From: Owenia fusiformis
Lineage: Eukaryota > Annelida > Polychaeta > Sabellida > Oweniidae
Assembly: GCA_903813345.2 (NCBI GenBank)
Contig: CAIIXF020000005.1
Span: 26,663,375 to 26,727,374 of the forward strand
Length of the DNA stretch: 64,000 nucleotides
Reading direction: 5' to 3'
Within the stretch, counting starts at the first letter, position 1. Each line of letters starts with the position of its first letter. Position numbers and translations under genes: made by a program. The notes beneath the pieces were generated by a model. It had not been told where the DNA came from and ran no database searches. It saw only the letters and a list, made by a program, of their open reading frames with translations. Positions 3,920-47,600 of the stretch are shown one piece after another.

Positions 3920-4218
3920 TAGGATTTGATCCTATGTTTTCAGATTAACTATTGGTACACAAACAACTGCTTTTAAATGATGACCCAGACAAATCATGAA
4001 CCTTCAATCAACAACTTTTTGAAATGGTACAGATATTCATTGATTGCACCCAACATTTTATGTCACCTTTGCATAATATACATGTTTAAATAACCATTGC
4101 ATTTAGACCCCTTGAGAGTTAAAGTTGTTATCAAACTATTAATCATTTTAAAATATTCTATTTGGTGAAGATAAAATTCCAAAAAGAGCAATCCTAATAT
4201 TCTATGACAGCTACTTAC

Positions 4219-5188
4219 CTAATTTATATATGAGCACAAATCCCATCATCCAGCGTGTCCCTGGAGAATCCCAGATGTCTTGAAGGAACTTGAATTTATT
4301 CCTCCAGTCTTTCATTTCACTTGGTTGCACATAACTATGTGTCAGCCTACTTATATCTATAGTTTCCTCATCCTCGGAGGACTCTGTCCGTGTTAGATCT
4401 CGTAAATGTTTCGAATCAGCAGCTGGTTTAGTCAGTAGTTTTCTTTGATAAAACACATTATCACTTTCAGCGTTATCAGTTGTACTTTGATGCTCTTGAT
4501 TCTGTATGTCATTGTTCAGTAAAGGGGATGCCGTATTCTCACTATCTGCATCACTAAGTAATGGTGTTGCTGCGTTGCTCGTTCCACTTTCGGCACTTTC
4601 TGCCGTCAACAGTTGCAGAGCTTCTAGATGGCGTAATTTAGGCAAGAAGTAAGTGAAAAACACAGCTTCTAAGTAAATCACGGCTAATATGAGAAACATT
4701 CCACCCCATCCTAAATAATCAGCAAGAATTACGAGGATTCCTCCACCACAAATAGACCCTAGTTTATAACCAACGACTTGGATAGTGTTTCCTAGACCTA
4801 GTTCATGATCACATAGGATTTCTAACGCAATACTATCAACTGCAATGTCTTGTATGGATACAAACAGATTCAGTAAAACAATCACGACGCATAGCATGAT
4901 GATATATTTAGGTGTCACGATTGTACCTATAGCACACGTAAGCACAAGGCAACTCATACTGTAGATTAACCACTTCCGTTTTGTGCTATATTTATCAACT
5001 AATGGTGCCCAGAGAGCCTTACACAACCAAGGTAATGAAAGCAGTTTGTAGAATGTGATGTCACTGAGTGAAATCCCTTGTTGACGGAGGTATACAGGCA
5101 TGAATCCAGTTTGAAAGCCATAAGGGAGCCCCTGTACAAAGTAGAGAAAACCCAACAGAACCATATTAGATGATATTCCAAGCTTCAT
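4219..5188 (-). CDS. MFSD3: MFSD3-like major facilitator transporter, first coding exon
   Basis: The coding part starts at the ATG at 5188; the exon itself begins at 5220 after a TTTGTTTTTCCAG acceptor, so 32 bases are 5' UTR. It ends at a GTAAGTA donor (4218), leaving 323 codons plus one base. The protein opens with a transmembrane segment, LYFVQGLPYGFQTGFMPVYL, then WAPLVDK at the end of helix 2 and IQDIAVDSIALEIL in the helix 4 region, the conserved set of the MFSD3 / AmpG / SLC33A1 branch of the MFS. About six helices are followed by a long Ser/Glu-rich cytoplasmic loop (about residues 190-295) and DSPGTRWMMGFVLIYKLG, the start of helix 7. The second half must be encoded left of the window, beyond the retrotransposon. 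Substrate unknown; the family is related to the acetyl-CoA transporter. Confidence 0.8.
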
Positions 5189-5220
5189 CTTGCAATATGG
5201 TATTTTCCACTGCAACTTCT

Positions 5221-6530
5221 CTGGAAAAACAAATATAACACACTGTGTGAACATACAGCATTGATAATAACGTCTTCATATAACAGACGTGTATTATACA
5301 TGTAAGTATATTACATGTACAATCCAAATCAAGGCAGATTGATTCACAGGGGCTTGTATGAAAGATGACACTAGTCACACATGATATGAATACCTGTACG
5401 TAATAGTGTTAAACTGAAATGAGAGTCACAAGAAATGCATACCAAATATTTAATTCTATTGAGGTGAATACTCCGTTACTCCGAAAAATATAATGATAAT
5501 TTACCAGAGAAAGGGGGGACGTTCTTAACCTTAGGCCAGTTTCATGCCATGTATTTGGCCAAATTAATGGCATGAACGCATTCTGATGTTCATGCATCCA
5601 TTGCATGGCGTTACCAGAATGGCAGGGGGGGGGGATTTATTTTACATTGTGATTCTAGATAAGGTTATTCAAACAGAATATATATTACTGAACAGTTTAT
5701 CTTATCTTCTCCAATCTCTTTTATATAGGCAATATAAAATGACACCTATTTTGAATCAGATAAAATAAGTTAACGCATCGAACTTTAAGAATAAAACAGT
5801 ATACATATTACGTTGTCAAAATATTTCGTCCCTGATTTAATTTCTTATGGTCTCTGTCTCTTATCAAATCGTAAAAGAACAAAACATTCTAAACTATGGA
5901 TTTATTTTTCGGCATTCGTTTCCGGCATTTGTTTTTTATGTTCTTCTCCTGAAATGTATTTGCTTGAAAATAATCAGAGAAAGTGCGTATACGTATAAAT
6001 TTGCGTGGCATATTCTGTCACGCAAACAAACGGGAAACGGGTGTGACTTCAATTTCTTGTCTGTCTGAGGACGTAGGCTTATTGGGAACGAGGTAGAATT
6101 AAAGAATTCTTATGAACGGTCATGCAAGATACTAGAACTAGTAAAATAATTTATTGGATAAGTTAATTTCTGATGGATCTAGATAAAATATGTCTCAAAA
6201 CTTTGTGAACACTAGATAACTACATTTAGGCAGATATAGTATCTTGATATATTTGGCTATCATGCGTTTAAAATACGTTCCTAAAACTATGAAGACGTTA
6301 GGTGAGAAATATATTGCTATTGTACGTTCGAAAAGTATTTGGTTGTATTTTGTAGTTCTCAAGTTACCCATGAACTTTCGTAGGCTACATATTAAACAAT
6401 TAACGTAATAGACTTAGCATATTTAGCCTAATTTTTGAATGATGTCAACGTGATTCCAATGTTATGTTGTCGTGATTTGCAGAGATCGGACAAGATTCGT
6501 TTTAAGAAATTGTATTTCTTTTAGATAAGA
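5221..6530. other. MFSD3 5' intron / upstream DNA
   Basis: AT-rich DNA without a credible frame. It must contain the upstream non-coding exon(s) and promoter of MFSD3, because the first coding exon starts at a splice acceptor, but I cannot place them. A weak palindrome around CATGCCAT...ATGGCATG lies at 5545-5610. Confidence 0.4.
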
Positions 6531-14709: not shown

Positions 14710-17700
14710 GTATGTGTACAGTCTTATACATTCTCATACTCAGACCATCTCTGCCATAAGAATCTTTAAGGAAACTGATAGAAGGCTGGCATATCTCACA
14801 ATGAGTCTTATATGGGTTCACTCTATTTGGCCAAAGCAACACAGTTCTCACTTGTGGATGCAGAAGGTAACAAGGGGGAGCTAATTTCAAATCCAAAAAA
14901 GATTTCCGTGCTGGCGCGGAAAAAATTTTGGGCACCTAAATCCCAAATTGGGCCCAAATTTTGAAAATTTAAGGCCCATTCTTTGATAATGGACCCCATG
15001 CCCCCACCCCCTGGATTCGCCAGTGGTTCTATAATAAGTATATGGAAGGTAGTAAATTCCTTCATCCTGTGACTTACACTTTTGAGCTGCACCTGCAACC
15101 TACAGGGTTACCAAAAATATGACCTGTAGGCTACAAAATTTGGCCTATCACTTGAATATAACCTAATTTGAGTTACATGTCAGAGGAGAGTTTTTTGCCA
15201 AAATGAGACACCTCTACTGCCTAGTTATTAATATCATGAAAAGTTCAAAACGAGGAGAGATTTTGTCAAGTGGGATTTTCTACTCCTGGAGTTGCTGTGT
15301 TTCTAGTTCATTATCCCATCTAACAAAGTTCAAGAGAAACTTACATTAATCCATATGTTTACTCAGATAACTAAATGAGAATGAATTTCCAATATGGCCA
15401 CTCAGCTCAAAATGGCCACCAAACTAAAATACTAATTGATTGATTTGGTTTAAAATGTATGTGCTTCAGCACTCATGTTTGAGAAGGGGAACAGAGGATA
15501 CTGCCTGGTTATATCTATCATGTAATGCTCAAAATGACATGAGTTGCTGTTTTTATCACACCAGGCAATGCATTTGAGGATTTAATTTCAAATTTTCATA
15601 GATTTTTCTTTGTTTGAAAATCTAGACCTGATAATTTTTTAATTATTTTGAATTTTCATTCTTGAAAACTTATTTGTAAAGTCTTGTCTATGGATTTCCA
15701 GCCAAACCATTTGACAGATTGAGATCAAACTTTTAGGAATGTTTCTTGGTATGAAACCCAAGAATGGATTTAAGTTTTGGGACTTTTGGGTAAATGTTAA
15801 GGGAACTGTGTCAGATATTCAGTCATAAAATCTTGTCTACATGTTTTAAGCCAATCCATTCTATGGATCAATCTAAAATTTCAGGGGATGCTTCCTGGTA
15901 TGAAGGTCTACACTTGATTGATTGATACTCTTCCAGCATGGTTTTATTTCAAAATTATGAGTGGTTTGATAAAATATATTTTGCTAATTGGAATTTGCTA
16001 CTCTGGGAAGTTACTGTTTTTTCTTGTTATAGCTTTATTTCTAACATTGACCTTTCTAATGATATATTCAAATAGCATCAATTTTTCATCAATGTTTGCT
16101 TACTAAAACCACAAACAAAGCCTTATGTGGTTGGCTGTTACTTATAATAGATAATGATAGTTTTAGTTGAAACATAACCAACCATTCCCTATTTGTTCAG
16201 CTTAGATTGGTTTCTATACTGCAAATATATAAATTATTTAAATTTCATATTCCTTTCAATAATTTCCATGCCGTTATAATTGGCTCTCAATTTTCACAAA
16301 AATGAGAATCAAAAATATTTTTCTCCTTTATTTTGTATGTCATTCAAACACTGTTTTTCCTCTCTCTTCTCCCTTTTTTATGTCACCACCAGAAGTGGTG
16401 AAATGTTGTTCTAAATGTTTGTGATGAAATATTTCACATTTCATCAATAGGTACAGTATTCATGAACTCTTAATTAAAATATCATGTAGTAAAATCAAAA
16501 ATAGAATGTTCAAGAGATATCAATAAAAAAATGAAGATAACATGTATTCAATACTTAAATTTATATATAGATATACCAAAAAATTAGCCAATCCATTCAC
16601 ATTTTAGAGGAATGATGTAGAATTGGCGTAAACCTGACAGTTATTTTATGTGCTGGAAGATATGTAGGCGTCATTCCAACAATAGAAAAAAAAAATTAAA
16701 ACATTCTAAAAACATAATAAAACCAATCATAATTGAACGCGTAATTTACATGGAAACAGCAAGAAAAATATTTGAAATAAAAATGATACTTTTCTTCATT
16801 TTTATTTTTATTTGTCATATAAATCTTGTGTCCGCTTTTGATGAAACGATAGGAGTTGAAAGAGTTAGTAGAATGGCAGGATGTGACACAAAGGAGGGGT
16901 GTAACACCGTAGATTTGGGACATGCTATTAACAGCTTTGGACTGGATCTCTACAAACTCCTCCCTACAAATAAAGATGGGAATATTTTCTTTAGTCCATT
17001 TAGTATCTCAACAGCACTAGCAATGACGTACCTCGGCACAGCAGGGAAAACTGCACAAGAAATGGAGGACACTCTGAAATTTGATCGATGTCCCAATTAT
17101 CATGAGCTATTCAAGAATCTGTTGAATGATATTAACAGGAAAAACCAACCATATACTCTTAAGTCTGCCAACAACCTTTTCCCTAATATGAGACTGGATG
17201 ATTCATACCTAAAGGAGGTTGCAAATTACTATCTAGCTCAGATAACACAGCTTGATTTTTCTAATGCAGCGTATGTCACAAAATATATTAATGAGTGGGT
17301 TTCAAACAATACTGAAGAAAAAATCAAAGATATAATAGACCCTGGAATTATTGGACCTCTTACAAGACTCGTTCTTGTCAATGCCATATATTTTAAGGGA
17401 GATTGGAAGTATACATTCGATAAAAGGGACACAAAACCTATGCCATTTTACCCTGCAGATGCAAAACGCTATAAGGTGGACATGATGTTCCAAACATTAA
17501 ATAAGACCCAAGATTTCATATACTTTGAGGATCATACCTTGAATGCTCAAATATTGGAACTGTTCTACAAGGGAGAAGACATCAGCATGGTTATTATCTT
17601 GCCCATAATACGAAGAGGACTAAAAACAAATATCACGGATCTGGAAGCAGCGTTAAACATCACGACCCTCAATAATATCCAATCAACCCTGGCCAACTAT

Positions 17701-20700
17701 GACTTCAGCAAACCGCGACGGGAAGTGAATGTTAGAATCCCAAAGTTTTTGATAGATTGGAAATCTGATATTGAAGCACTTCTAAAACAACTAGGAATGC
17801 AGGATTTATTTTCATCTGGAAATTTCAGTAAACTTTGTGGCTGTAGCTTGCCAGTTACTGATGTTATCCATCAAGCATTTGTTGAAGTTAATGAAGAAGG
17901 TAATGATTCATAAATTTGTTTTTGTTATATTCATTCAGTCTGGAGGCAAACTAAAGGTTGGAGTAGTACAGGGTGTCTCAAAAAAATGTAGACCAGCATC
18001 TGGACAGAAATCAAAACATTCCACCAGAAATATCAAATGTGATGAACAATGTAGTACTAAGGATGCAGACTGTCATCGAAATATGAGGTTACATTAAATA
18101 TTTGGTGTCAAAGGTAATGGGTTAAAGTATCAAAAAGGCAAAAATGGATCAATTTACTGTGTATATGGGAAAAAAATATTGATTGGTTTGACATGCTGTT
18201 GATATACTTTTGGGTACATTTTTTGAGTCACCCTATACATAATGGAAATTATTAGTTTTTAGAAAAATAAATTAATTTTTCTGGTGGTCTTATGGGGATA
18301 TTCATGAACAAGGAATTAATTTGAAAAAGTTTTAGTAATTCAAAGTACATAGCTTTTATGTATAACTTGATTTCATGGGAAATGTTGCCTTTTACAGGCT
18401 GATCCAAAAATGCAACCATCTGATATTGATATCTTCTTGAATTTACTCACATGCAGGGTGACAGCTGGAAAAGTACATGTATCATCATATGATACATGTA
18501 TTGTTTTATTGAATTAAATGGGTTGATATTATATCTATGATGTTCTTTTTTCATTCATGGCTGTCATGCTTTGTGATTATTTTTACTGTGCAGGGACAGA
18601 AGCAGCTGCTGCAACTGTAGTTTTTATTGCTAAATCAATAGGATCAGGACCTGTGGATTTTAGAGCTGACCATCCCTTCTTGTTCCTCATCCGACATAGA
18701 TGCTCCAATATTATCTTGTTCATGGGATGTGTCTCAAAACCAAGTAAGAAGGTCACATTTGGGTGGAACTTGAACCTTGTCTGGTTAAATAGTCTTCATT
18801 TTAATTGATTAAAATCCAAAATTTGGAAAATGTTCTTGAAGGTTCCTGTTTTCATTATCATATTAAAGTCATACATAATCATAATATTTATTAGGAAGCC
18901 CCAGGCTGAAAGCATTATTGTCCCACCTCCCAAATTGCCATTTGAAACTAGGACCTACTTTAGCTGGGATGAAAATTACAATACATCATTACTGTAAATT
19001 TAATATTTTAGACAAAGCTGAGAAGAGAATATCATGTCTTACTGAAAAACCATGTTTGAAACTCTACAATGGTGAACCAGCACCGAAGTGTTGTGGTTGT
19101 AGGTTTCAGTTCAAGGACCCATCTGAAAAGGTTTGTGTATTTCTTGTATTGTTCAATGCCATTCCTGTAATTCTTCAAATGTATCAATTGGTTTTCTGTT
19201 CATCTTTATTGATATGGCAATTTTCAATGTGAAAGTTACACTGTACAATTAAAACAATGAATCGATTGCCATTTCATCTTAAATCCCATAATTGCTGTAC
19301 AATTGTGTGCTTAAAATGGCATAACATTACAGGATGGGCCAATATAAATAAGATTTGGATAGTAGTAGTTTTGGCCCAGCCTGTATATTATACAAATGAA
19401 TAATAATTTGGTTTTAGTGGTATATATTCATCGAGTATTACAAAGGAAGTTAGAATAAATTTTGTTTAACATACGAAATCCACATAATAAAAATGCACTA
19501 TTAATTTTATTTTGTAGAAATCAAAGCCTCAATCACCAATGAGGGTTCTAAAAAAACTTAAGAAGCAGGGCAGAGATGATTGCTTTGAGAAATGTCTGAA
19601 TGACGATTGTAGGAAAAAATTTGGATTCAAATGAGCACCTCTTCAAAAGGAAGACATAATACAGTATATGCAGTATATAATATGCAGTGATCTCCCCAGC
19701 ATTAAAGCAAGTGGGCGTAGCACCCACCTAAAATTTTGAAAAGAGGCTTCCACCCACTTGAAAAAATCATGAAACAATTTTGGTCTAAATTGTGAAAATG
19801 GGAATTTTGCACCCACTTGAGAAAAAGTTCTGTGGAGATCACTGATATGTATATTCAGGATTTACAACAAACTAACAAATTGAGAGACATTGTACAGTGA
19901 GACCTGTTGGTGGAACACTTTTCAGTCTCAAAACCAACTGACTTAATGTTTAATGAAAGTGGAACACCTCTCAAGGGGAACACATTTTAGAGGTATCAAT
20001 GGTGTTCCACTGGACAGGTTTTACTGTCTCATGTACAGGGCTAACTATCTATAAAGTGATCCCATTGAAGCTGGTTGTTTATGCAAATGAGAATGGAATA
20101 ATGGTAGCAGAGTTGATGGAAGGAAATGTGTTGCATATTCAGGATTTGGATTTGGACAACTGTGATCTGATACTTTTCAATGTACAGAATAAATTCTGAT
20201 AATAAATTAGGGTTATCACAAACAACAAATATTACTTGTTCAATTTAAATTAGAAAAGTATGAATGTTTATGTCACTATCAAGAAATTGTGACATATTGT
20301 TAGAGCCACAGTTTTTGCGACTGGCATTTTGCATTGGTGCCTGAAACATATTGTTGCACTTTATTATTGCAAGCAGGTGGTGATATTTTGTCATTTCAAA
20401 AGACAACAGGGGAAATAATGTATCAATGCATAATTCAAAGATGAACCTATCTTAGTAAAGACATGGGCTTTCAAGAGAAGAGCCCGTGGTTCATTTTTAC
20501 CATGGGCTTTCAAGAGAAGAGCCCTGTGGTAAAGATGAATCACGGGACTCTTCTCTAAATTAAGATAAGTTCATCTTTGAATACTGGATTATTATCCCAA
20601 CGAACGAAGTTCTGTAGGGATTTAGTGAAGCCCTCCGTCCGTCAGTCAGTCAGTCAGTTCGTCCGTCTGTCCGGAAGATAACTCGAATACTAGTTGACAG

Positions 20701-23700
20701 ATTTTCTTCATATTTGGTGGGAAGATGTATATTGGTAAATAGTTTTAACTAAAATAGTTTTTTTTCAAGATGGCCCCCAGTTTAAAAATGGCGAGAATTT
20801 TTCGCAAAAATCTTATGTTTTTCATTTTTAACCAAAATAATAAATATTATTATTTGAAATTTTGGTAGTATATAACAACATCTATCTATTTCACATATAT
20901 CCCGGGTTTTTCACCCTGACCCCCAGGGGCCGTAAATGGGGAATTGGGAAAACAGTAATTTGCGTTAATTTTGAGATGTTTTTAAAGTATAGCTTTATTA
21001 TACTCAAATGAAAGGCAACTTAGGGTAGATTGCAAATATTGTAGCGTTTTTCTGATTTGGGCCTCAAAAAATCAAAATTGCCACTTAATGCGGGATTACG
21101 CACTTATTTTCTGATCTCTTAAAAGTATGGCTATATTATACACAAATTGAAGGAATTTCAGAGTAGATCACAATTATGGCATTGTTTTTCTGATTCTTCT
21201 CTGAAAATTCAAAATGGCTGACTAGAGCAGAAATTCGCCATTACTTAGAGTTATCTTGAAAGTATGGTTACATGATACTACAATGATTTAAAATATTTAT
21301 TGAAGGTAAGAGTAGATGGTAAATATTATATTGTGACTGTACAGATTGATGATTTATATAGTGTTTGTTGGGATTTGCTACTCCGTGGAGTTGCCATTTT
21401 CTAGTTCACTTTTGACCAAATATTCGTAAAAATATTCATTGTGAAAATGTATCTTGTGTATTGTGTCACAATCTTTACAGTATATCTTTAATTATAGTAT
21501 ATAAAATCTTTACTTAAAGTATATAAATCTTTACTGATATTACTATAAATCTATACTGATGGTATATACACTATTAACTTAAGGTATGTACAATATTTAC
21601 TTACAGGAGGAGTTAGATGAAACACTTCCTGTTCAAGATGTTGATATCAATGAAATATCACAACCACCAAAAAATGGAATGAGAGTAACATGGATGGGAC
21701 ACGCATCAGTTCTAGTGCAGTTTGATGAAATATCAGTACTAACAGACCCCGTATTCAGTGAACGCTGCTCACCAATGCCATCTATTATGGGACCTAAGCG
21801 CTATCGTCCTGTTCCGTGTCAGATAGATGACATTCCTACATTAGATGCTGTTGTAATCAGTCACAATCACTATGACCATCTTGATCATGGAACAGTTGTC
21901 CAACTGAATAAAAAATTTGGTTCAAAATTGAAATGGTTTGTACCAATGGGACTTAAATCCTGGATGAATGACACTGGATGTAAAAATGTTGTGGAGATGA
22001 CATGGTGGGAAGAGCAGCCTCTTTCTGAACATGAGACAGCTGGGGCGACATCTGGTGGCAGTGGGGTAAAGTTTGTCTGTTTACCATGTGCTCACTGGTG
22101 CACAAGGAAGGGTCCTATAGATTTTAATAAGGTGAGGAGTATTTTATGTATCTAAGCTTGTATTTGCAAATGCAACAAACGCCCGTCGACTTCCAGATTT
22201 GCCTGCTATTTTATGGGCAACTCATTTAAATATGAAAAGTACCTGTCACTATTCCATTCATACTTAAATGAGTTGGTCATGAAATATTAGGTTAATCTGG
22301 TAGCTGACAGGCGTTAGTTGAATTTGTGAATATAAGCTTAGATAAGTGTTACATGTATTATTTTGACTAATAAACTGTCAATTTACCCTTTGCATTCGTT
22401 TAACTTTGCTTCTTAAAACATGTAAAAGAGAGCTTCATCTTCACTCTTTCAGTTTACATTAAATCTCTCAACTCACCGAGCCAATCAGAGTTTGTCGTCA
22501 AAATAGGGACAACTTTCTATACATGGTCATGTCCTCTTACATCACTGCATACTGTAGTTAACGAGCATGCATTTAGCATGTGTTCCTTCATTCTGCTGAT
22601 TGGTTGATAAAAGGCTGGGGTGTCCCAGGCATCAGTCGTGGGGCTGGGGCTGCTAAACTGTAATGGGTTATGGTAACCATATCCTATAGCGTAGGATTTC
22701 ATACTGTTGAAAAATATGGAAATTATCCTGTTGTTTTATGCTATAAATAACTTCATAACTCATGAGATTAACAAAATTTTTGAAGTTCATACAATGTTCT
22801 TATCATAGGTGTTGTGGTGTAGCTGGGGTGTGATCGGTCCATGGAACAGATTCTATTTTGGAGGAGATACTGGTTATTGTGAGGGCTTTAAACAAATTGG
22901 GAAAAAATATGGACCATTCAATCTAGCAGCTATTCCTATAGGAGCATATGAACCCAGGTAAATAGATGTAGATTGTAGATGTAAAAATACTTTAAATATT
23001 TGATGGCAGGTTCACTTAGACTGACAAAATAATACAATCAGTTGAAGACCATATTAAAAACATTGCTTGCTGTACTTTTGCAAAATCAGGATATGTGCCT
23101 CAACATAGGACAACCAGCCTTATCACAAAAATTAAAATTGTGCTACAGACCCAAAAATGTGCCCAAGATTAAGAGGAAAATGTGCTAAATTCAAATCCGT
23201 CTTTTTGGTCCATATCTGCAAGGAAGAATTGTTAAGACATAAGCCATGGCTCATTTGAAAGGTCTCTGCTTTTTAAAATACATAAAAAAATCAAAATATT
23301 GAAAAAATCCTATCCCTTTTCCTATGCCCTGGCTCATATATAACTGCATACAATATATACAACCCTTTATTTTGGAAAGACTTGATATATTTGCCATTTC
23401 CATCCCTACCTTCCCTTATAGGGCAGAAATGAGAAATGTGCCTTACTAAAAGTAGACCTCATAGAAAAATGTATTTGCAGAAACTTTATGAAATGTCAGC
23501 ATGTCAATCCAGAAGAGGCTGTGATGATACATCAAGATATAGGGGCCAAAAAATCTGTAGGGGTCCACTGGGGAACATTCAAACTCACAGATGAGGTAAA
23601 TTTATCTGCTATATTTGGTTTGTCACCTTGCTGTTACCTAGCCATGAACATTATAAGCAATAATGCAGTTTGATTACAGTATTACATACCCAGCGAAGCA

Positions 23701-26700
23701 TTTGTATTGAAGTCAATGGAGCTGAAGGTCGGCTATATATTCCTGTATAGCCGCCAAACCTTTTACCATGACAATCTTATGACATCATCGGGACGTCATG
23801 TTTCATTTCTTCCTAATTTCACTCGCACACAGACACGTGGCATCATTGATATAACGTAGCCATGATATAAAAGTATTGTCGGACCTGGCCAAAATCTGGT
23901 AGTGTGGTTGTGGTCGGGTCACGAACAATTTTTATTATTTATTATGGGATTCTCACTGGTCTTATGTGGGCGCAGACCTGGTTTGGTGGTACTGCTTTCA
24001 CTGAAAGGGGAGGTTGTTACACATATGCATACAGAATACAGATATACAGTTTTTATAATTTATTAACACTAATTTTTAACAACAAATAAAACACAAATGT
24101 CCATGTAATAATTAACTCTGAGTTGTCTTGTTGCTCTTCTCTTGTTTGCACTCTGCTCTACTTTTACTCTTCTTCACTCTGTTCAGGGGTTACTCTGCTT
24201 TACTCTTCTGTTCTCTACCCACATTTACTCTGCTTTAGTTTCACTCTGTTCAGCTCTTCTTACTCTTTATTCTGCTCTGGTTACTCTTTACTCCTTTCTG
24301 TTCTGCTCCGTTACTCTTTATTACTCATTTGTTCTGCTCTGCTTACTCTTTACTCCTTTCTGTTCTGGTTTACTCTGTTCTGCTCTCTTTATTCCGCTCT
24401 GCTCTGCTTACTCTTTACTCCTCTGTTCTGGTTACTCAGGATTACTCTTCTTCAGCCCGGGTAACTCTTCTTTACTCTTCACCGCTCTGCTCTACTCAGG
24501 GTTACTCTTCTTCAGCCTGGGTTACTCTTTACTCCTTTCTGTTCTGCTCTGCTTACTCTTTACTCCTCTCTGCTCTGGTTTACTCTGTTCTGCTCAGGTT
24601 ACTCTTTACTCCTTTCTGTTTCTGCTCTGCTTACTCTTTACTCCTTTCTGTTCTGCTCTGCTTACTCTTTACTCCTCTCTGCTCTGGTTTACTCTGTTCT
24701 GCTCTCTTTATTGCGCTCTGCTCTGCTTACTCTCTATTCTGCTCTGGTCACTCTTTATTCCGCTCTGCTTACTCTTTACCATGTTCTGCTCTGCTTACTC
24801 TTTAATCTATTCTGCACTGCTTACTCTTTAATCGGCTCTGCTCTGCTTACTCTTTAATCTGCTCTGCTTACTCTTTAATCTGCTCTGCTTACTCTTTATT
24901 CTGTTCTGCTCTGCTTACTCTTTATTCTGCTCTGCTTACTCAGGACTGCTCTTCTTCAGCCTGGGTTACTCTTCTTCAGCCTGGGTTACTCTTCTTTACT
25001 CCTATCTGCTCTGGTTTACTCTGTTCTGCTCAGGTTACTCTTTACTCCCTTCTGTTCTGCTCTGCTTACTCTTTACTCCTTTCTGTTCTGCTCTGCTTAC
25101 TCTTTACTCCTCTCTGCTCTGGTTTACTCTGTTCTGCTCTCTTTATTCCGCTCTGCTCTGCTTACTCTCTATTCTCCTCTGGATACTCTTTATTCCGCTC
25201 TGCTTACTCTTTACCCTGGTCTGCTCTGCTTACTCTTTACTCTATTCTGCACTGCTTACTCTTTAATCTGCTCTGCTCTGCTTACTCTTTAATCTGCTCT
25301 GCTTACTCTTTAATCTGCTCTGCTTACTCTTTACTCTATTCTGCACTGCTTACTCTTTAATCTGCTCTGCTCTGCTTACTCTTCAATCTGCTCTGCTTAC
25401 TCTTTAATCTGCTCTGCTTACTCTTTATTCTGTTCTGCTCTGCTTACTCATTATTCTGCTCTGCTTACTCTTTATTCTGTTCTGCTCTGCTTACTCATTA
25501 TTCTGCTCTGCTTACTCAGGACTGCTCTTCTTCAGCCTGGGTTACTCTTCTTTACTCCTCTTGGCGAATAGATTGGGAATATCGATCAAATTCTGAGATT
25601 AGACCCAACTATCTGCCCTCAAAGGAAATAAAGCGATCACTTCAGTTGGAATCCCTGTTGTTCCAAAAAACACTCCTCCAGACGAGTAATTCGGGAATAT
25701 CAATCAAATTCTGAGATTAGACCCAAATTACTAGTCACATAATAAATCTGCTACCCCACAAATACACTTGCTCTTGGTGGGACTCAAGAATGTCAATCAA
25801 ATTCTGAGATTAGACTTGAGCCACATGTGAACCGGAAGTCATACAAGATGGCGGACTTGCTGAGGATTGTTGGAAAATGATGATGCAATCACAAAATAGC
25901 CACGCTGATTAGCAAAGAATCATCAAGTAAAACCCTCTAATTCTACCTCAGAATGAATTATAAACTCAAATCAACACTCACAAATTCTCCAAAACGTCTT
26001 CTAGGCGCCTCTAGACTGCAACTTCTCTGGCAGTACTCCCTGGTCAACACATCAGGCCAAACGGCTCTATATCCAAGTGTCACTGTTGATTCCCGTCACA
26101 AAACAGTGAAAATACTCCATAAACTCCAATATCCACGATTAAACTCCAAAATTCCTCACATCGAGTAATACTCCATCATAAAATCACCTTTCCGCCATCA
26201 ACATCATGAGCCAGCTTCTAAAAATGACACTACAGGTCCTTACTCTGTGACTTCTTGAGCTAGACTAACATCAGGTGTTCAGATCATGTGCTATCTCAAC
26301 CCACTAATGAGATGCATAGGGAAGCTATCTGATTGGCTACAGCTGGACTGAGCTGGTGTGTTTACTCCATTTGGTGATGCATTGTGGGAAATCACTATAG
26401 CAATGTCAATCAAGTAGCCTCTAATTGCTGATGACTCATAACCATGTGGCCTATTTCTCCTACAGGTTGACCAATTCTAGGGCAAGGGTCCCCGCACAAG
26501 CAAAGAGTAAGGTTACTCTTACTCTTACTCCCAGCTTACTCCTTGAGTTTATGGTTACTCCTAAGTTACTCCTTGATCGTTGCACTTACTCTTAGTTTAC
26601 TCCTTAACTTACTAGCAGCACATGAAGTGTTAATTATGAATAAAATAGTCTAAAAAAATAACAAAAAGTGGGGAATTTCTAAATTTCCCACACACCCCCC

Positions 26701-29700
26701 ATCTTAAATCAATGCGCCCTCGCATTGCTACTCCTAACTTAACAATTAGTAACCAACTTTCTTAATCCACAATTCCATGAACTACAAAAACAACATATTC
26801 GAACATTTAACATCTCAGAGTGTATGATGTTACAATTACTCATCATCACCTTACATTAACTCAAAAAGCTTAAATATCTCTTCATAAAATTATCACATAT
26901 TTTAATACAATAACAATAAACTACAGGTTTCTAAATAAAACTGCTCCTTTACCACTACAACGTGTACAAATGCACATGTGTTACTTACAAGCAAACATCT
27001 TAAAATAACTCATATACTCCTGTCTATCACTGTTCATATACACCTACATCACTAAATGTCTTTAAATATACCCATAATAACCTTTACTCCTCAATCTGTA
27101 AACATTGATCTATCAGTGCAACTAAATTAAGAGTTCATAACTTATCACTTTCTATGTGCACACACAATGTGCTGCTACAGGAGTTTGTGTTCCTTGGTCG
27201 ATCTGTGTACTCATAGTGACCACTAGCTCTTTTGATGGTCCTTGGAGGTTTGTCCCATCTCTGTAGTCTGTTCCTCTTCCTTCCTTATTCCTCTGATTAA
27301 GTCCAATCGCTTCACGTTTCAATCTTGGCATCTCCATCTTACTCATCACCACCTTTCTCCTTAAAGCAGACTCTCTTCTATCACTCACCAAGGATCCGTG
27401 TATAGAAAATATCCCTTCTTCCCCATTGGGTGGCAACTTCTCACTCTTAGAATCTTTACTCATCCCCAAGTCATCTTCTCTATTCATCCACCCATTGGCT
27501 CTACTCCTGGTGAACAGCCATCTCTGACTTCTACTCTTTTGGGGGCCTCTATGAGTAGAATCATCATAATCACTCCTTGCTGACTCAGGAGCTGGAGTAA
27601 CCTTCTTCATTTCACTCTGCATGTTATAACTTCTAGGAGGTTGTCTTCTCTTACTCCCTTGCAACATCTTAGTCTGAGTAGGCACTCCTCTCTCCTTGCT
27701 ACCCTCGTGAGTAACTCTTCTCACCTTCCTCACTTGAGGTGGCTTCCCCGGAGTACAACTTCGGAAATTACTCTCTTGAAACTGAGTAGACAACACCCCC
27801 TTCTTCCTCTGCTCTAAATCCTTGCTCTGAGTATGCTTACTCTTTAGTGAGCAATTCTTCTTCTGTGGTTGGCTGGAGGAGCACAGCATTATTTCTGCTA
27901 CATCATGTTTCCTCTCCTCACGGTCCTGTCTGTTGAAATAAATTCTAAGATCAGCATAGTCTATAATTGCTCCGCTTGCAGACAAGTACTCTGACCCAAG
28001 GATACCATCTTGGGCGATATCTGCTACCACAATATTCATCGGCATAAACTTACCATCCAACTCAATATCACACGAAATCATCCCAAATACAGCTAAGTGG
28101 GATCCATCTGCCTGAGTGAAAAGTCGATCTAAGGGCCTCAAGGTAGGGCGATGTCTCTTTGGGATCCGATTGTAGCACCCCCACCCTAGCATACTGCTTA
28201 CAGCTCCTGAATCCACAAGGAACTCCATCCTAGTCCCACAGATATCAACATCTGCTATAATTTTCCTAACTGGCTCCTCACTATTCGCTGAAGTTATCTC
28301 CTCATACCTGTCTGCCATAAACCTCACAGGAGTAACAGAATTGGTTGTATTTGTCCTGGATTGGCCTTTCTCTCTTCTTGGCATCTCTGGTAGTGGACAG
28401 TCGTATGACAAGTGACCTGGTTTGTTACAATTGTAGCATGTCAATGTGGGACACCTTCTCACTATATGTCCGTCCTCTCCACATTTTCTACAGGTGGACA
28501 CGCGTTTGGAGGACCCTCTGTTAGCGATTTCAGCTATTCCTTTACTTATTTCTTTACTCATCTGTCCAAGTGTCTCTTTGAGTGTTTCCCCCAACTGCTT
28601 TCCCATCTCCATTTGCATTCGTTCCAGTTGAGTGCATATATCTTCTCCCTCTTCAACGTGCAGGATTTTATGATCCCTCTTTGACTTCAGGCCCTTTCTT
28701 ATTCTTTCTGATTCCCGGTAGCTTTCTTCTTTTATAGCTACTTCAATTGCTTTATCAAGTGTTTCGGGATCCTTCCTGTGTATTGCCTCTCTTAAGTCAT
28801 CGTCGGGTATGGCTTGCTCGAAGCTTCTTCTAGCCAGCCTGTCCTGAGCATTCCTGCTCATCTCCGGGTAGGCGAGTGAAGTCAAACGTCGGATGTTTTG
28901 GCCTAAACTCGGAAGGGATTCTTTCGGCTTACGCGTGCGACTGCACAACTCAGCCTCATAGACGTCTGCCTTCCCTCCAGGGCCGAACCTCTTCTCCAGT
29001 GCCATAAGTAAATCTTCATAGGAGTATCCTTCATCCAACTCCAGGACCAACTGCTGTGCATCTCCTCTTAAATTTGTGGCCAAATATTGCTTCTTCTCTT
29101 GTGGGGTCCAACCATTATTCTCAACACAGGTGGCAAAATAGGCCCTGTAATCTTTCCATGGTGCACTACCATCAAAGGTCTGTGTGGGCTTTATTCTTGT
29201 TCGAGTATTAGAACTCTTGGTAGACTCTATCAACTTCGAACACATGTTCGAACACATGTCAACCATCTTGGCCATTAGCATTGGGTTCGACTCCTCATCT
29301 ACCTTCTTCATCGGCATATACTCTTCCTGCTCTCTGGTAGACTGTCTTGGTTTAGCTTCATGTAGGGGCTCTCTAGGCTGGGGTCTCAGTTCAGTATAGT
29401 CATCCATATTAGGGCAAGTAGCACTATTCGTGAGGTCATCTCGTTTCCTTTCCTCCCAATGGCCTAGATAGGAATCCCTCGTACCATAGTACTCCCCATC
29501 TCCTCTCTGCACCCCAGAGTAGTGTTCTGTACTCTTCTGTCTCTCTGCAGGGAGTAGTGGAGTAGGCCTTCCTGGCTCTCTCGATGGCTCATGGGAACCT
29601 GTCCTGTACTCCTCTGATACTGGCTCTCTGCTACCCCCCATCTTGGCATCTGGTGCCCATTCGCTTCCGAGATGTGATGCCAACTCTTTCCCACTGTATC

Positions 29701-32700
29701 CATCTTGTCTCTGTAGTGAGAGTTTCTTCGTATAAATTCCGGAGCACACTTCTCCATGGGCCTGTGAACTTACTCTACTCTTTTGCTCTGGCTCCAAGTT
29801 TGCAGTCACTGTATTTCCGCTACTCATCATTTGCTCCTTCTCCAATTTCTCAGGAGTCAAGTGACTGTCATCTTTAGCAGCAGGGAGGCGCTGAACTATA
29901 TCCGACAGGAGGCCCTTGAACTCTTGTTGAGCCTCTCGATGGGTTGTATTCAGACTCTCTATCTGTCTCTGTATCTCTCCTTGACTCAAATGGACTTCTC
30001 TTCGAAGGCCTTCCTGCCCGGAGTACACTTCTCTTCTGAGGTATTCATACTGCTGTGCTTGGGCCTTCATCTGGCTGCTTAACGCAGACATCTGGAGTTG
30101 CTGACTATGTAACTCCTGTTCCAGGGGCATGGTAACCCCAGGAGATCTTCCCTCCAGCACAGTCGAAGTTAAAGGAAAGCCTCTCGATGGCGTCATCCCA
30201 TACCCTACTCCTGGTACCATATAACCCGTCTTAGACCTTGCTCCTTCGGGATTTTCTTCCACTTCTCTTGTGGAATCTACTCCACACATCCCTGGCACTG
30301 TATCATCTAGCTCCATGTCCACTTGGGTGTAGTCCCCCTTGAAGAACACAGTGTTGTCCGCAGACTCCTCTTCCTGTTGTCCTCCTTCCATCCTGGAAAC
30401 TATACCATCAGGCCCTTCTTCCTGTTTAGAAGCCATTTTCTTCTCTTAAGTCTTTGTTCCCCGTCAGCAAATAATCCCACCGCTGCCACCAATGTCGGAC
30501 CTGGCCAAAATCTGGTAGTGTGGTTGTGGTCGGGTCACGAACAATTTTTATTATTTATTATGGGATTCTCACTGGTCTTATGTGGGCGCAGACCTGGTTT
30601 GGTGGTACTGCTTTCACTGAAAGGGGAGGTTGTTACACATATGCATACAGAATACAGATATACAGTTTTTATAATTTATTAACACTAATTTTTAACAACA
30701 AATAAAACACAAATGTCCATGTAATAATTAACTCTGAGTTGTCTTGTTGCTCTTCTCTTGTTTGCACTCTGCTCTACTTTTACTCTTCTTCACTCTGTTC
30801 AGGGGTTACTCTGCTTTACTCTTCTGTTCTCTACCCACATTTACTCTGCTTTAGTTTCACTCTGTTCAGCTCTTCTTACTCTTTATTCTGCTCTGGTTAC
30901 TCTTTACTCCTTTCTGTTCTGCTCCGTTACTCTTTATTACTCATTTGTTCTGCTCTGCTTACTCTTTACTCCTTTCTGTTCTGGTTTACTCTGTTCTGCT
31001 CTCTTTATTCCGCTCTGCTCTGCTTACTCTTTACTCCTCTGTTCTGGTTACTCAGGATTACTCTTCTTCAGCCCGGGTAACTCTTCTTTACTCTTCACCG
31101 CTCTGCTCTACTCAGGGTTACTCTTCTTCAGCCTGGGTTACTCTTTACTCCTTTCTGTTCTGCTCTGCTTACTCTTTACTCCTCTCTGCTCTGGTTTACT
31201 CTGTTCTGCTCAGGTTACTCTTTACTCCTTTCTGTTTCTGCTCTGCTTACTCTTTACTCCTTTCTGTTCTGCTCTGCTTACTCTTTACTCCTCTCTGCTC
31301 TGGTTTACTCTGTTCTGCTCTCTTTATTGCGCTCTGCTCTGCTTACTCTCTATTCTGCTCTGGTCACTCTTTATTCCGCTCTGCTTACTCTTTACCATGT
31401 TCTGCTCTGCTTACTCTTTAATCTATTCTGCACTGCTTACTCTTTAATCGGCTCTGCTCTGCTTACTCTTTAATCTGCTCTGCTTACTCTTTATTCTGTT
31501 CTGCTCTGCTTACTCTTTATTCTGCTCTGCTTACTCAGGACTGCTCTTCTTCAGCCTGGGTTACTCTTCTTCAGCCTGGGTTACTCTTCTTTACTCCTAT
31601 CTGCTCTGGTTTACTCTGTTCTGCTCAGGTTACTCTTTACTCCCTTCTGTTCTGCTCTGCTTACTCTTTACTCCTTTCTGTTCTGCTCTGCTTACTCTTT
31701 ACTCCTCTCTGCTCTGGTTTACTCTGTTCTGCTCTCTTTATTCCGCTCTGCTCTGCTTACTCTCTATTCTCCTCTGGATACTCTTTATTCCGCTCTGCTT
31801 ACTCTTTACCCTGGTCTGCTCTGCTTACTCTTTACTCTTTAATCTGCTCTGCTCTGCTTACTCTTTAATCTGCTCTGCTTACTCTTTAATCTGCTCTGCT
31901 TACTCTTTACTCTATTCTGCACTGCTTACTCTTTAATCTGCTCTGCTCTGCTTACTCTTCAATCTGCTCTGCTTACTCTTTAATCTGCTCTGCTTACTCT
32001 TTATTCTGTTCTGCTCTGCTTACTCATTATTCTGCTCTGCTTACTCTTTATTCTGTTCTGCTCTGCTTACTCATTATTCTGCTCTGCTTACTCAGGACTG
32101 CTCTTCTTCAGCCTGGGTTACTCTTCTTTACTCCTCTTGGCGAATAGATTGGGAATATCGATCAAATTCTGAGATTAGACCCAACTATCTGCCCTCAAAG
32201 GAAATAAAGCGATCACTTCAGTTGGAATCCCTGTTGTTCCAAAAAACACTCCTCCAGACGAGTAATTCGGGAATATCAATCAAATTCTGAGATTAGACCC
32301 AAATTACTAGTCACATAATAAATCTGCTACCCCACAAATACACTTGCTCTTGGTGGGACTCAAGAATGTCAATCAAATTCTGAGATTAGACTTGAGCCAC
32401 ATGTGAACCGGAAGTCATACAAGATGGCGGACTTGCTGAGGATTGTTGGAAAATGATGATGCAATCACAAAATAGCCACGCTGATTAGCAAAGAATCATC
32501 AAGTAAAACCCTCTAATTCTACCTCAGAATGAATTATAAACTCAAATCAACACTCACAAATTCTCCAAAACGTCTTCTAGGCGCCTCTAGACTGCAACTT
32601 CTCTGGCAGTACTCCCTGGTCAACACATCAGGCCAAACGGCTCTATATCCAAGTGTCACTGTTGATTCCCGTCACAAAACAGTGAAAATACTCCATAAAC

Positions 32701-41600: not shown

Positions 41601-44600
41601 TTGTACCTTATACAAGTGCAAGGGCCGAAAATTATCTGCAAAAGTATGTTACAAGCCCAAACATTTGTTTATCTATAGTTTGGTTTGTTTGAGTGGAGAT
41701 AAAAATTGGATATCACATATCAGGTATATCCATAGTAGATCAAATTATACATAACAAATAAACAGAAATGTAGTACAGTATCAGATCTAACAAACAAACA
41801 GTGTCTCAGTTTTGCAATATTTTGAACTCATATCATTTCTTGTCATGTCTATTCTATAAAACACTGTATTATGCATAATTTATTTAAAGGAACCTAAAAA
41901 TAATAATGTGTTTATTTCTCTATAAATGTGATTACAACATTATTATTTTGGAGAATTTACTTTGTGGCTAATTATACAAATTGAATTTGAGATTGTAAAG
42001 AATGCATTTGTATACATGTTGCTTGCAATTTTGTCATCCCCCCTCCTATGCAATAGATCTGATTCTGCCTCTAATTCATGTAGTTATATTTCACAGTAGA
42101 TGTTGTTTCATGTTCATTTGTTTTCATCAAAACAGTGTGTCGCACATATTTATGACTGGTATAGGCAGCGATATGTTAGAGTGATGCCCTCAAAAGGAAA
42201 GTAAAAATATATTTATACAAAATCTATATATACACTGTATATGCCATGAATAAACCATGTTATATAAATCATTAAAATACATTTATGTTTCTTTTTGATG
42301 AATTGTGGACTCTTGGACTATGAATATGTATTTTGCAAAGTGCTAGGAACTTTAAAACATACCTGTATAATATCCTCGTAGAATATAGCATGTAGACGAA
42401 AATAACAGCAAAATACATTAACAGAAAGACAGGTAAGTTTATATTGAAATAGCAAAAGATTTATTTCATGAATTTAGATATTACAGTATATACAACTGTG
42501 TTTGATATAAGACTATTTAAAAATTGAGCCTGATTGACAAGATCTAATGTAATCCATGAACTCACTATTGGCTGGGTTACTTCAGTATTATTTTATGCTT
42601 GATAACTATTTTCTTTGATTAAGACATTTTATCGCATAACCTGACTCTTGACTTGATGATTGGTGATCATACATGTTCTAATTTTGTTTGGCTATGATAT
42701 TTTCATTCAAAGATAACATTTGATTTTGAGCTGTTTTTTATTCAATGATGACTAATCTTACACAAACTGACAAATAGTCACCAGGTTCTTTTTGCGCTTG
42801 CCACAAAAGAACATTTTTAACCTGGATTTTGTTCAATTTTACGGTTTTTGCTTGTGGGGTATCGGCTTCAACCAGGTGAATTGACAGTATTCAAAACTTC
42901 AAAGTTTACAATTTAGATTTCAGGTCATCTCTATCTTATCTCGAGGATATTGGCCTAAATATAAAATGGCTTCATGTTTGTCTGTAGGGCTTCTTAGAAC
43001 TCATTGTGAAATCTTCATCACACTTTTCCTGTATTTTACTGTTTTTGTTTTCTTTTAATCTTATATTTTTGCTCTTTGTATGATACATGAAATTCACTTT
43101 CATAATAAACTTTCCCCTGATATTTAGTATGACGAGCAATTTTGAAGTTTTATATTGCATTTTTCATATTTACATGTATAATACTCACCCTTATTCTTTT
43201 TGTTACACATAAAGAATTGTTTTGAATTAAGGTAATCCAATAATACATGTATCTTTTAAAAAAGAAAGAATTGACACTTTTCATTTTCCATCATTAATTA
43301 TTCTTTAAATATCATGCACTTATTCATAATGGTCACTATTTCAGAGAAATATGTTAGCTAACTGAAAACATTGAAATATTTTTTACAATTTGTTAATTAA
43401 TGAATTGAATATGTCTAGATAATTAGGTACAGCCTATCCCAGTTGATTTTTTACTTAAATCCCCTGTAGCATTCAGTAGTTTATGATGGTATTTATTAGA
43501 TCTAAACAGGTAGCATGTTATGATTTGTTGTATATTTGAATGATGGATATGTACCATTCATTAGTGTTATAGGTTTTATTAGATGTCATAGATCAAAAAT
43601 TGTACATGTAATGTAAACTCTCACTTTGACAATATTATTCCACCATAGCTTAATTGAAATGACATTCACATAAAAAAGGTTATAAGTAACCTAGTTCTGT
43701 TGAAATGACACATGTGTGGTATCAGTAACTTAGTTGAAATGACATATGTACAGGGTGATATCAGTAACTTAGTTGAAATGAGGTTCACATATATGGGGTG
43801 ATATCAGTAACTTAGTTGAAATGAGGTTCAAATATGCTGGGTGATATCACTAACTTAGTTGAAATGAGGTCCACATATACATGGTGATATCAGTAACTTA
43901 GTTGAAATGAGGTTCACATATACGGGGTGACATCAGTAACTTAGTTGAAACGAGGTTCACATATACGAGGTGATATCAGTAACCTAATTGAAATGAGGTT
44001 CACATATAGGGGGTGATATCAGTAAATTAGTTGAAATGAGGTTCACATGAACTGGGTGACATCAGTAACTTAGTTGAAATGAGGTTCACATATACGAGGT
44101 CACGGTGTATAACCCAAACGCTCCTACATGCACGACGGAGCGTTACATTTACGCGGAAACGCTCCGGAGCGAAATAAAATGGCGGCTAATGAAGATTCTA
44201 CTATGACCGTAATATTGTTTCTCTCGTTTCTCTTACATATCATATGTCATGGTGAAATATTATGTACCATTCGATGAACAATACCGTGAGCAAAGATCTT
44301 ATTTATTCAACTTTTGGTGGTAAACTGTTATTTGCTTGATCAAAGCTCCGTAGTGTAGATCGAACGAATCTGAAGATGACGATTTGACCACAAATTACGA
44401 ATTAAACTAGTATTTCTATGAAAACGTTAATCTTTCTGTTTAAGCAGTAGATCATAAACTCGTATATTCTCATTTCCTAAAATCCCAGTCCAAATCCATT
44501 ACTTGTTCTCGAGAAATCGCTTGTTTTCCTCGTAACGCTCTGTCGATTTAGACCACAATTTTAGAAACGCTCTTACCATTTTGTTTTAATATCATTTTCA

Positions 44601-47600
44601 GATTATTAGAGAAGAGTTCCGAATCGAATCTATCTCTCAAATACGTGTTGTAGTTGTTAGGCAAATTGAAACATCTGAACCTGGTGGTGCTAAACGTGCA
44701 ACTAGCTGATTAAAGCCTATACATTAGATGATGTCATGCCTACATATGTGCTAAATCATAAAACTATAGAAAAAAACGAAAAGTTATATGTGAATTAATC
44801 TTTCTTCTATTGATGCCAAGGGGTATAATAGATCTTTTCTTTCTCTTCCTGAAAAGGAAAGGCAAGCTATATATTTCCTTAACTGATCTAGACCACCGGA
44901 GCGTTTCCAATTCACTGTGTTAACCAGATCGGAGCGTTTCTTGAATATGAGAATGTCATCATTTTTAAGACTGGATTTTCGGTCATCAAATCACTATTAC
45001 GATAATGTATGGTGCGTTGAAGCATTGGAATTTGACTAAAATATACGTTGGTGCTCTAATCTTGGCTCAACTAATCACAAGTATCGACAAAAGGGGTTTT
45101 GACCGGTAGAATGACAAATGCGTTTTTGAATTTTGATAACTATACTGCTTCGTACAGCTCTTCCGAATTGCTTCAAACGTCAACAGCCAGCCACGTACAA
45201 CATGAATATCACACCCATCGAATGGTATACTCGAAATATGTAACTCATACCTCTTATTCCCATTATTGGGGAAATTGTCAGACGGCTCATCATTCCCGCC
45301 AGACAGTTTTTCTACTCCGGAGCGTTTCTTTGTTTAATTTCAGTAATGGAACGCTCCGTCGTGCATGTAGGAGCGTTTGGGTTATACACCGTGGAGGTGA
45401 TATCAGTAACCTAATTGAAATGAGGTTCACATATACAGGGTGATATCACTAACTTAGTTGAAATGAGGTTCACATATACAAGGTGATATCAATAACTTAG
45501 TTGAAATGAGGTTCACATAAACTGGGTGATATCAGTAACTTAGTTGAAATGAGGTTCACATATGCTGGGTGATATCAATAACTTAGTTGAAATGACATAT
45601 GTACAGGGTGATATCAGTAAATTAGTTGAAATGAGGTTCACATGAACTGGGTGATATCAATAACTTAGTTGAAATGAGGTTCACATATGCTGGGTGATAT
45701 CAATAACTTAGTTGAAATGACATATGTACAGGGTGATATCAGTAACTTAGTTGAAATGAGGTTCATATACTGGGTGATATCAGTAACTTAGTTGAAATGA
45801 GGTTCACATATACAGGGTGATATCAATAACTTAGTTGAAATGAGGTTCACATGAACTGGGTGATATCAATAACTTAGTTGAAATGATGTTCACATATACT
45901 GGGTGATATCAATAACTTAGTTAAAATGAGGTTCACATATGCTGGGTGATATCAATAACTTAGTTGAAATGAGGTTCACATGTACTGGGTGATATCAGTA
46001 ACTTAGTTGAAATGAGGTTCATATATACTGGGTGATATCAGTAACTTAGTTGAAATGAGGTTCACATATACAGGGTGATATCAATAACTTAGTTGAAATG
46101 AGGTTCACATGAACTGGGTGATATCAATAACTTAGTTGAAATGATGTTCACATATACTGGGTGATATTAATAACTTAGTTGAAATGAGGTTCACATATGC
46201 TGGGTGATATCAATAACTTAGTTGAAATGAGGTTCACATGTACTGGGTGATATCAGTAACTTAGTTGAAATGAGGTTCATATATACTGGGTGATATCAGT
46301 AACTTAGTTGAAATGAGGTTCACATATACAGGGTGATATCAGTAACTTAGTTGAAATGAGGTTCACATATACAAGGTGATATCATTAGCTTAGTTGAAAT
46401 GAGGTTCACATGTACAGGGTGATATCATTAGCTTAGTTGAAATGAGGTTCACATATACAAGGTGATATCAATAACTTAGTTGAAATGAGGTTCATATATA
46501 CAGGGTGATATCAGTAACTTAGTTGAAATGAGGTTCACATATACAGGGCGATATCAGTAAGTTAGTTGAAATGGGGCTCACATATACAGGGTGATATCAG
46601 TAACTTAGTTGAAATGAGGTTCACATATACAGGGTGATATCAGTAGCTTAGTTGAAATGACATTCATAAATGAATCTGATACCAGTATCACATGATTTTT
46701 CTTGAAATCATTTTACCTTATTGCCATACAAAATACTAGAGGAATAGTGCATATTCAGTTATTGTGTTTGAAAATACTACTACTCAGGAAGTATACAAGT
46801 GATCTACTCTTGATCATATTACATCGCATCAAGTTTGAGAGCTTATTTGACATTCTATTAATTCATGTTATCTTTGAATGACATTTTCAAGGACAGATGT
46901 TAAAGTAATGTTACTTCTTCCTGACTCTCACCAGGAAAGGTTGAGAGTGTGATGGAAAGGGTTTAAGTAAAGTGGTACTATTTATCTTCTACATTTTACA
47001 GGATATAATTGTGAACATTGTGACAAGTTCACATGGCTAGTCAATGGTTTGTGGCTAGAGCCTAAAAGACTCACAAAAGCATGGCATGTGACATGTATGC
47101 ACATGGCTGCCTGATTCATATTTTTCAATGATTGATAAAATATCTTTTTGATGTTGTTTTTATCTCCAAGTTGAATTTTAAAAAATTTGAAAAGTAGTTT
47201 GAAAAATACTAACAACCCTCTATTTTTATCGGATCTATAAGATAAAAATATCATCCACTGGTTTTGAATTATTTTTGTTTCCTCACTTAATATATTATTA
47301 TCTACTTGTGGATAAAAACCATATACATGTACCATACCGTGTACACGTACCATGTGATAAATGAAATGAGATATTTAGACAATTAAAAAAATCATCAATA
47401 CCTATTACTGCAGGGCATCAAATTAAACACATACATAATCATATAATTACTTTCCCATCTATTTCATATTTGCCATCCATATTGAAGTAAAACAATTTTT
47501 ATTTAACTTGATCAAAATCCGCAATGAGGATGTACATGTTCGAACACACATTAAGATTTCTTAAAGGTAACAGAAGTTAATAACAGAAGTTACTAAAACG

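Follow-up and report, generated by a model that had tools for sequence, protein, structure and literature searches.

A probable non-autonomous cut-and-paste transposon family, recently active, with CACGGTG ends and 5-bp target duplications in Owenia fusiformis

The window analyzed here, a 64,000-nucleotide stretch of the genome of the annelid Owenia fusiformis (contig CAIIXF020000005.1, positions 26,663,375 to 26,727,374), contains at 44101-45393 a transposon copy whose ends carry the tip CACGGTG. In our judgment (probability roughly 0.85), this copy represents a non-autonomous cut-and-paste transposon family that was recently active, and we leave its superfamily open. The copies have terminal inverted repeats (TIRs) and a target-site duplication (TSD) of fixed length, are many and homogeneous, and hold no recognizable transposase gene. 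As far as our literature searches show, the family is new, and its kind is ordinary. The searches returned no account of a CACGGTG Transib, of annelid RAG1-like elements or of non-autonomous Transib miniature inverted-repeat transposable elements (MITEs), and nothing relevant by title on MITEs with subterminal words and 5-bp TSDs; this does not prove absence in print.

Direct comparison of both ends bears out what the first-pass annotation of this DNA had described, namely TIRs of 44 bp that are perfectly inverted and open with CACGGTG (left TIR, 44101-44144, plus strand; right TIR, 45350-45393, minus strand). Base 45 is mismatched and bases 46-49 match again, giving 49 bp at 98%. The duplication GAGGT, also claimed there, is present at 44096-44100 on the left and at 45394-45398 on the right. 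The element interrupts an array of 43-bp satellite repeats, which occupies 43716-44100 on its left (the last 5 bp being the left TSD) and continues at 45396-46660 on its right. When the flanks (43 + 43 bp) are joined minus one copy of the TSD, they match a paralogous satellite unit in the left part of the array (43929-44014) at 83 of 86 positions; an exact copy of the central 40 bp of the joined flanks lies at 43952. Because the joined flanks match a nearby satellite unit, the empty site that had been proposed is real.

The TIR search for further copies that had been suggested as a check was carried out on the whole genome (498 Mb in 525 contigs). The exact 20-bp young-type tip occurs 416 times (205 + 211) and the older-type tip (with CC after CACGGTGT) 148 times (76 + 72); the reversed control gave 0 in both cases. 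Given two tips per copy, these counts suggest that the family numbers a few hundred copies, mutated tips being uncounted. Most copies carry the tip CACGGTG, and some have CACGGCG, CATGGTG or CAAGGTG at one end. Intact copies are ~1.29 kb long, and when the complete element served as a DNA query all 40 scored matches (of 620 candidates) span essentially the entire element at 96-100% identity. In a comparison of 19 copies with a young consensus, from which two copies with nested inserts were left out, the window copy and 16 others (L003-L018, of which one is shortened by deletion to 670 bp) are 98.2-99.6% identical to that consensus, the figures for L019 and L020 being 96.05% and 96.96%. Ten older copies show 92.5-97.8% identity to an older consensus. 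Between the window copy and each of two others, six of 1293 positions differ (99.5% identity), so the youth first read from its perfect TIRs is borne out, and the near-identity of the young copies fits recent transposition.

The length of the TSD was surveyed at 66 loci including the window, 62 of which are two-ended (L039, L040, L043 and L054 lack both ends); 15 one-ended stretches and 39 further tip-bearing places lie outside this survey. An exact 5-bp TSD flanks 55 of the 62 two-ended copies and no other exact length was seen, in line with the 5-bp duplication first claimed for the window copy. Two further copies, described below (one of 12.66 kb and one consisting of the TIRs alone), also have a 5-bp duplication. 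With both strands pooled, the 55 exact sites define the target as C|WWWWW|G. C stands directly before the TSD in 49% of them (binomial p 1e-12 against an assumed background of 0.19), and the GC content is 18.5% within the TSD versus 37.9% in the 20 flanking bases (Fisher p 4e-10). Genome-wide, C or G precedes 111 of the 416 young-type tips, or 26.7%, compared with a GC background of 35.4% taken as the mean of the four quarters of the window (p 2e-4), and A precedes 136.

The element is also rich in the GGAGCGTTT word GAGCGTT, of which the window copy contains 10, six of them outside the TIRs. The expectation from 500 dinucleotide shuffles of the element is 0.10 on average, with a maximum of 2, and the remaining 62.7 kb of the window contains one. 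In the young consensus the words start at 17-, 38+, 58-, 435-, 467-, 800+, 833+, 1221+, 1251- and 1272+ (signs give the strand), a layout that is nearly mirror-symmetric and that the older consensus retains exactly at eight of the 10 positions. Neighbors within a cluster are spaced by 20-21 or 30-33 bp, approximately two or three helical turns. In the window, a left cluster of three (44117-44164; words at 44117 -, 44138 + and 44158 -, spaced 21 and 20 bp) faces a right cluster of three (45320-45377; 45320 +, 45350 - and 45371 +, spaced 30 and 21 bp), and an inner left pair on the minus strand (44534-44572; 44534 - and 44566 -, spaced 32 bp) is mirrored by an inner right pair on the plus strand (44899-44938; 44899 + and 44932 +, spaced 33 bp). 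The first-pass annotation had noted repeated words near both ends; their number is indeed far above chance and their arrangement symmetric, but two of the pairs are interior, so that the words are not confined to the ends. In hAT and CACTA elements, repeated subterminal words serve as transposase-binding sites, and by analogy the GAGCGTT words are likely candidates for such sites as well.

We propose that the family is moved in trans by a DDE transposase. This enzyme would bind both the 44-49-bp TIRs and the GAGCGTT words in their mirror-symmetric layout, bring the ends together and excise the element, whose insertion into a C|WWWWW|G target, cut with a stagger of 5 bp, would leave the 5-bp duplications. 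Amplification would have occurred in two waves, the older with tips CACGGTGTCC and the younger, to which the window copy belongs, with tips CACGGTGTAT.

The coding content of the element is slight. Only short frames are listed for the window copy; the longest (114 amino acids, aa) starts inside and leaves the right end by 50 bp, and one forward frame of the element translated through its stops gave no Pfam match. The consensus has a start codon and contains ATGGCGGC, a splice-donor-like GTAAGT and, farther on, TTTTCAG and a second open stretch, so that the interval looks like a GT..AG intron. In the window, a possible first coding exon remnant of 10 aa, putatively coding and followed by the donor-like site, falls at 44179-44208 (plus strand), and a possible second one (35 aa and then a stop in the consensus, preceded by TTTTCAG) at 44602-44709 (plus strand). 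Among the 61 loci compared, the donor string is present in 46 (three of them partial copies), the window copy having lost one base there, and the acceptor string TTTTCAG in 52. The joined exon peptides have no match in Pfam or in the PDB and so are kept only as a possible remnant of the gene of a parent element. A genome search with a guessed longer joined peptide scored 150 of 549 candidates. Seven loci that have long open frames or lack stops turned out to be the same element, and no search result supports a likeness of the split-frame peptide to the C-terminus of RAG1.

The CAC..GTG ends and the 5-bp TSD would place the family nearest the Transib/CMC group. The tip of HzTransib likewise begins with CACGGTG, and Transib elements, the source of the antibody-gene recombinase, share CAC-initial tips and 5-bp TSDs with the element. 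According to passages of the sources concerned, CA..TG ends and TSDs of 2-5 bp are found across the Transib/CMC/RAG1 clade (PMC12730594), and protostome RAG-like (RAGL) elements have CAC tips, 5-bp TSDs, non-autonomous copies and the consensus CACTWMCAAACKTYKBB (PMC7204232). It was from the CAC start and the 5-bp TSD that a non-autonomous Transib/RAG-type family had been proposed for the window. Non-autonomy, the CAC tip and the 5-bp TSD stand. The assignment itself is not supported, the target being AT-rich and credible Transib matches lacking in genome searches that can miss matches. A passage of PMC8289069 describes the TSDs of ProtoRAG as GC-biased and gives the same preference for Transib and vertebrate RAG; the element prefers the reverse, and for this reason we do not file it as a Transib. 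Its tip, moreover, fits the protostome RAGL consensus at five of 17 positions, the CAC included, and its GAGCGTT words set it apart from Transib.

The corresponding enzymes were also searched for. A Transib query, which retrieves HzTransib (6pqn) from the PDB at E 4e-83, gave a single genome match (E 0.48) that looks spurious, and a 72-aa C-terminal Transib query (HzTransib in the PDB at 1.6e-19) gave none. With a RAG1 C-terminal query, the only four genome matches (E 0.2 to 1.4) lie in another transposon family (L033-L036). The Pfam model for RAG1 had no genome match, and its controls likewise gave no match; RAG1L was not detected in these searches. We think it rather unlikely that the element is a true non-autonomous Transib or RAGL element, cut at CACGGTG by a Transib/RAG1-like transposase that is lost, rare or missed. 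A link to RAG is possible, though no transposase supports it, and the AT-rich target preference speaks against its simple version.

A different source of the transposase would be the hAT elements, which often carry repeated subterminal words and whose tips follow the consensus YARNG. The GAGCGTT words would suit a mover of the hAT5 type, as would the 5-bp TSD for which hAT5 is named (by a title in the reference list of PMC12730594), and the genome offers 147 matches to the hAT dimerization domain (150 scored of 183 candidates). The tip CACGG, however, breaks YARNG at base 3. No hAT gene was recognized inside the copies read, and none of the 147 matches is shown inside a copy; among the matches listed, the sole one within ~5 kb of a tip or peptide place (C6:36338393) lies ~4 kb from a full copy, with about one such neighbor expected by chance (a rough estimate, the places being compared by eye). 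On balance, we consider a hAT5 mover unlikely.

Chapaev and EnSpm elements (CMC) resemble the family in their CAC..GTG ends. Chapaev elements differ in duplicating 4 bp rather than 5. EnSpm differs also, its TSD being 3 bp in a passage of PMC12730594. The combination of CAC..GTG ends, a 5-bp TSD, an AT-rich target and symmetric words might instead belong to an undescribed lineage of the CMC/Transib/RAG1 clade that makes 5-bp TSDs at C|WWWWW|G. We hold this tentatively, as a real possibility short of an even chance. Several RAG1-related transposon families do occur in this genome (L033-L036; L091-L093), but in the stretches read they have neither CACGGTG nor a significant match to the element. 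The more specific suggestion, that a Transib/Chapaev/RAG1-clade transposase lineage as yet undescribed combines 5-bp TSDs at C|WWWWW|G with hAT-like subterminal words spaced by about two or three helical turns, strikes us as rather unlikely.

Whichever superfamily is involved, the transposase was sought in the copies themselves. A longer copy coding a DDE transposase, the further check suggested at the outset, did not appear: at 120 tip-bearing places including the window, of which 53 were followed inward for only ~0.7 kb, no transposase gene was recognized inside the element. Some, not all, of the open stretches at these places were searched against databases, and tip positions were listed for 100 of the 416 young-type, 100 of the 148 older-type, 100 of the 111 C/G-preceded and 100 of the 136 A-preceded tips. 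Because genome searches may overlook matches and not all copies were read, the missing transposase is weak evidence of absence. The outcomes named beforehand as fatal to a Transib/RAG-type family were likewise not encountered, neither an autonomous copy with a non-Transib transposase (among the 120 places) nor TSDs of other lengths in most copies (among the 62 surveyed). Facing tips 2.88 kb apart at C5:23951160-23954040, known from tip and peptide matches alone, enclose a match to the element peptide. Inward follow-ups of 7 kb at L040, L043 and L086 met no partner tip. As for the larger open frames in the follow-ups, L040 has a GT92 glycosyltransferase, L087 a Fic-domain frame and a 202-aa frame without a match, and L088 a GT61 glycosyltransferase; a 385-aa frame that lies ~1 kb to the left of the L028 copy matches nothing in Pfam. 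The sequence outside the element was compared among 24 loci that either depart from it or contain an insert, a set to which some other loci departing from it part-way (such as L075, L077, L078 and L083) did not belong. The sole long stretch shared was an insert common to L067 and L080, the other matches being 28-44 bp.

Several observations weigh against a non-autonomous family mobilized in trans. Among the places read no autonomous partner was found, and the transposase acting in trans is something that we infer. An exact TSD is absent in seven of the 62 two-ended copies (four of the five bases agree in four copies, three in two and two in one); one of these is the young copy L018, with four bases, and the other six belong to the older subfamily. 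The suggested binding role of GAGCGTT is drawn solely from the number and symmetry of the words. Finally, the 45-aa split frame could in principle encode a real small protein.

The value of a non-autonomous family of this kind is that it is clean and young, that its target rule has been measured and its ends are defined, and that it offers candidate binding sites; it so provides a specific test for its transposase. Were that enzyme a member of the Transib/RAG1 clade, the 5-bp cut made by relatives of RAG would be separable from their reported GC bias. If it is hAT-like, the CACGGTG tip would be a convergence, and a warning against RAG-like calls made from the heptamer alone.

Not all copies have the standard length. 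Three longer ones (2078, 2791 and 1826 bp) appear to be the same element with nested insertions. The 12.66-kb copy (C3:20306930-20319694; L097 and L098) is interrupted at bp 558-560, where TTA is duplicated, by an insert of 11.37 kb; this insert has TAGGCCATCAGC ends and tandem repeats of ~167-172 bp. In L040, the first 207 bp of the element adjoin the GT92 glycosyltransferase frame. In L043/L088 (C3:10116640-10125300), its first 148 bp run into an array of a 167-bp satellite (9.3 units in L043 and 19.2 in L088), with the GT61 frame beyond. At the other extreme is the 60-bp element of L110 (C9:8679664-8680424), which consists of two TIRs alone with the 5-bp duplication GAGTT and, as single-stranded DNA, folds into a 24-bp hairpin. 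Facing CC-type tips that span 70 bp at C1:37568537-37568606 may be a second TIR-only element, as judged from the tip positions alone.

The RAG1-related families mentioned above deserve brief description. L033 (2649-4826 of C1:15857500-15865500), together with L034-L036, represents a transposon family present in multiple copies, two of which hold open frames of 726 and 729 aa. It shows CxxC and HxxxxH motifs, and its sole Pfam match, to RAG1, is below the cut-off (E 0.0022). Its candidate ends are CATATCGAGATTTT, with no clear TSD. We rejected it as a partner of the element on account of these other ends and the lack of CACGGTG in the stretches read. The relatives L091-L096 also have no CACGGTG in the stretches read. 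An N-terminal Cys-rich frame in L092 (1130-1873 of C8:37700700-37707000) matches PF12560 (RAG1_imp_bd) above the cut-off (1.1e-9), the corresponding frame in L091 has a zf-AD match, and L091 and L093 carry DUF1280 frames. On these sequence features the L091-L093 loci resemble Chapaev elements, and presumably they are of the type named N-RAG-TP. The Chapa domain of Chapaev is described in a passage of PMC4411706 as the N-terminal part of RAG1.

The window itself contains other probable mobile elements. Direct repeats at 24001-25700 and 30617-32276 are 97.6% identical and rich in TCTGCTCTGCTTACTC motifs; between them, a minus-strand frame (27155-30445) has zinc knuckles and a weak aspartyl-protease match, and the whole is possibly a unit resembling a long terminal repeat retrotransposon. 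At 1-2225, a reverse transcriptase frame is followed by a frame with a phage-integrase-like N-terminal match below the cut-off (E 0.0026), likely a tyrosine-recombinase retrotransposon. Frames resembling host genes are those of an acetyl-CoA transporter/MFS protein (4214-5275, minus strand), a serpin (16621-17910, plus strand) and a beta-lactamase-fold protein (21583-22152, plus strand).

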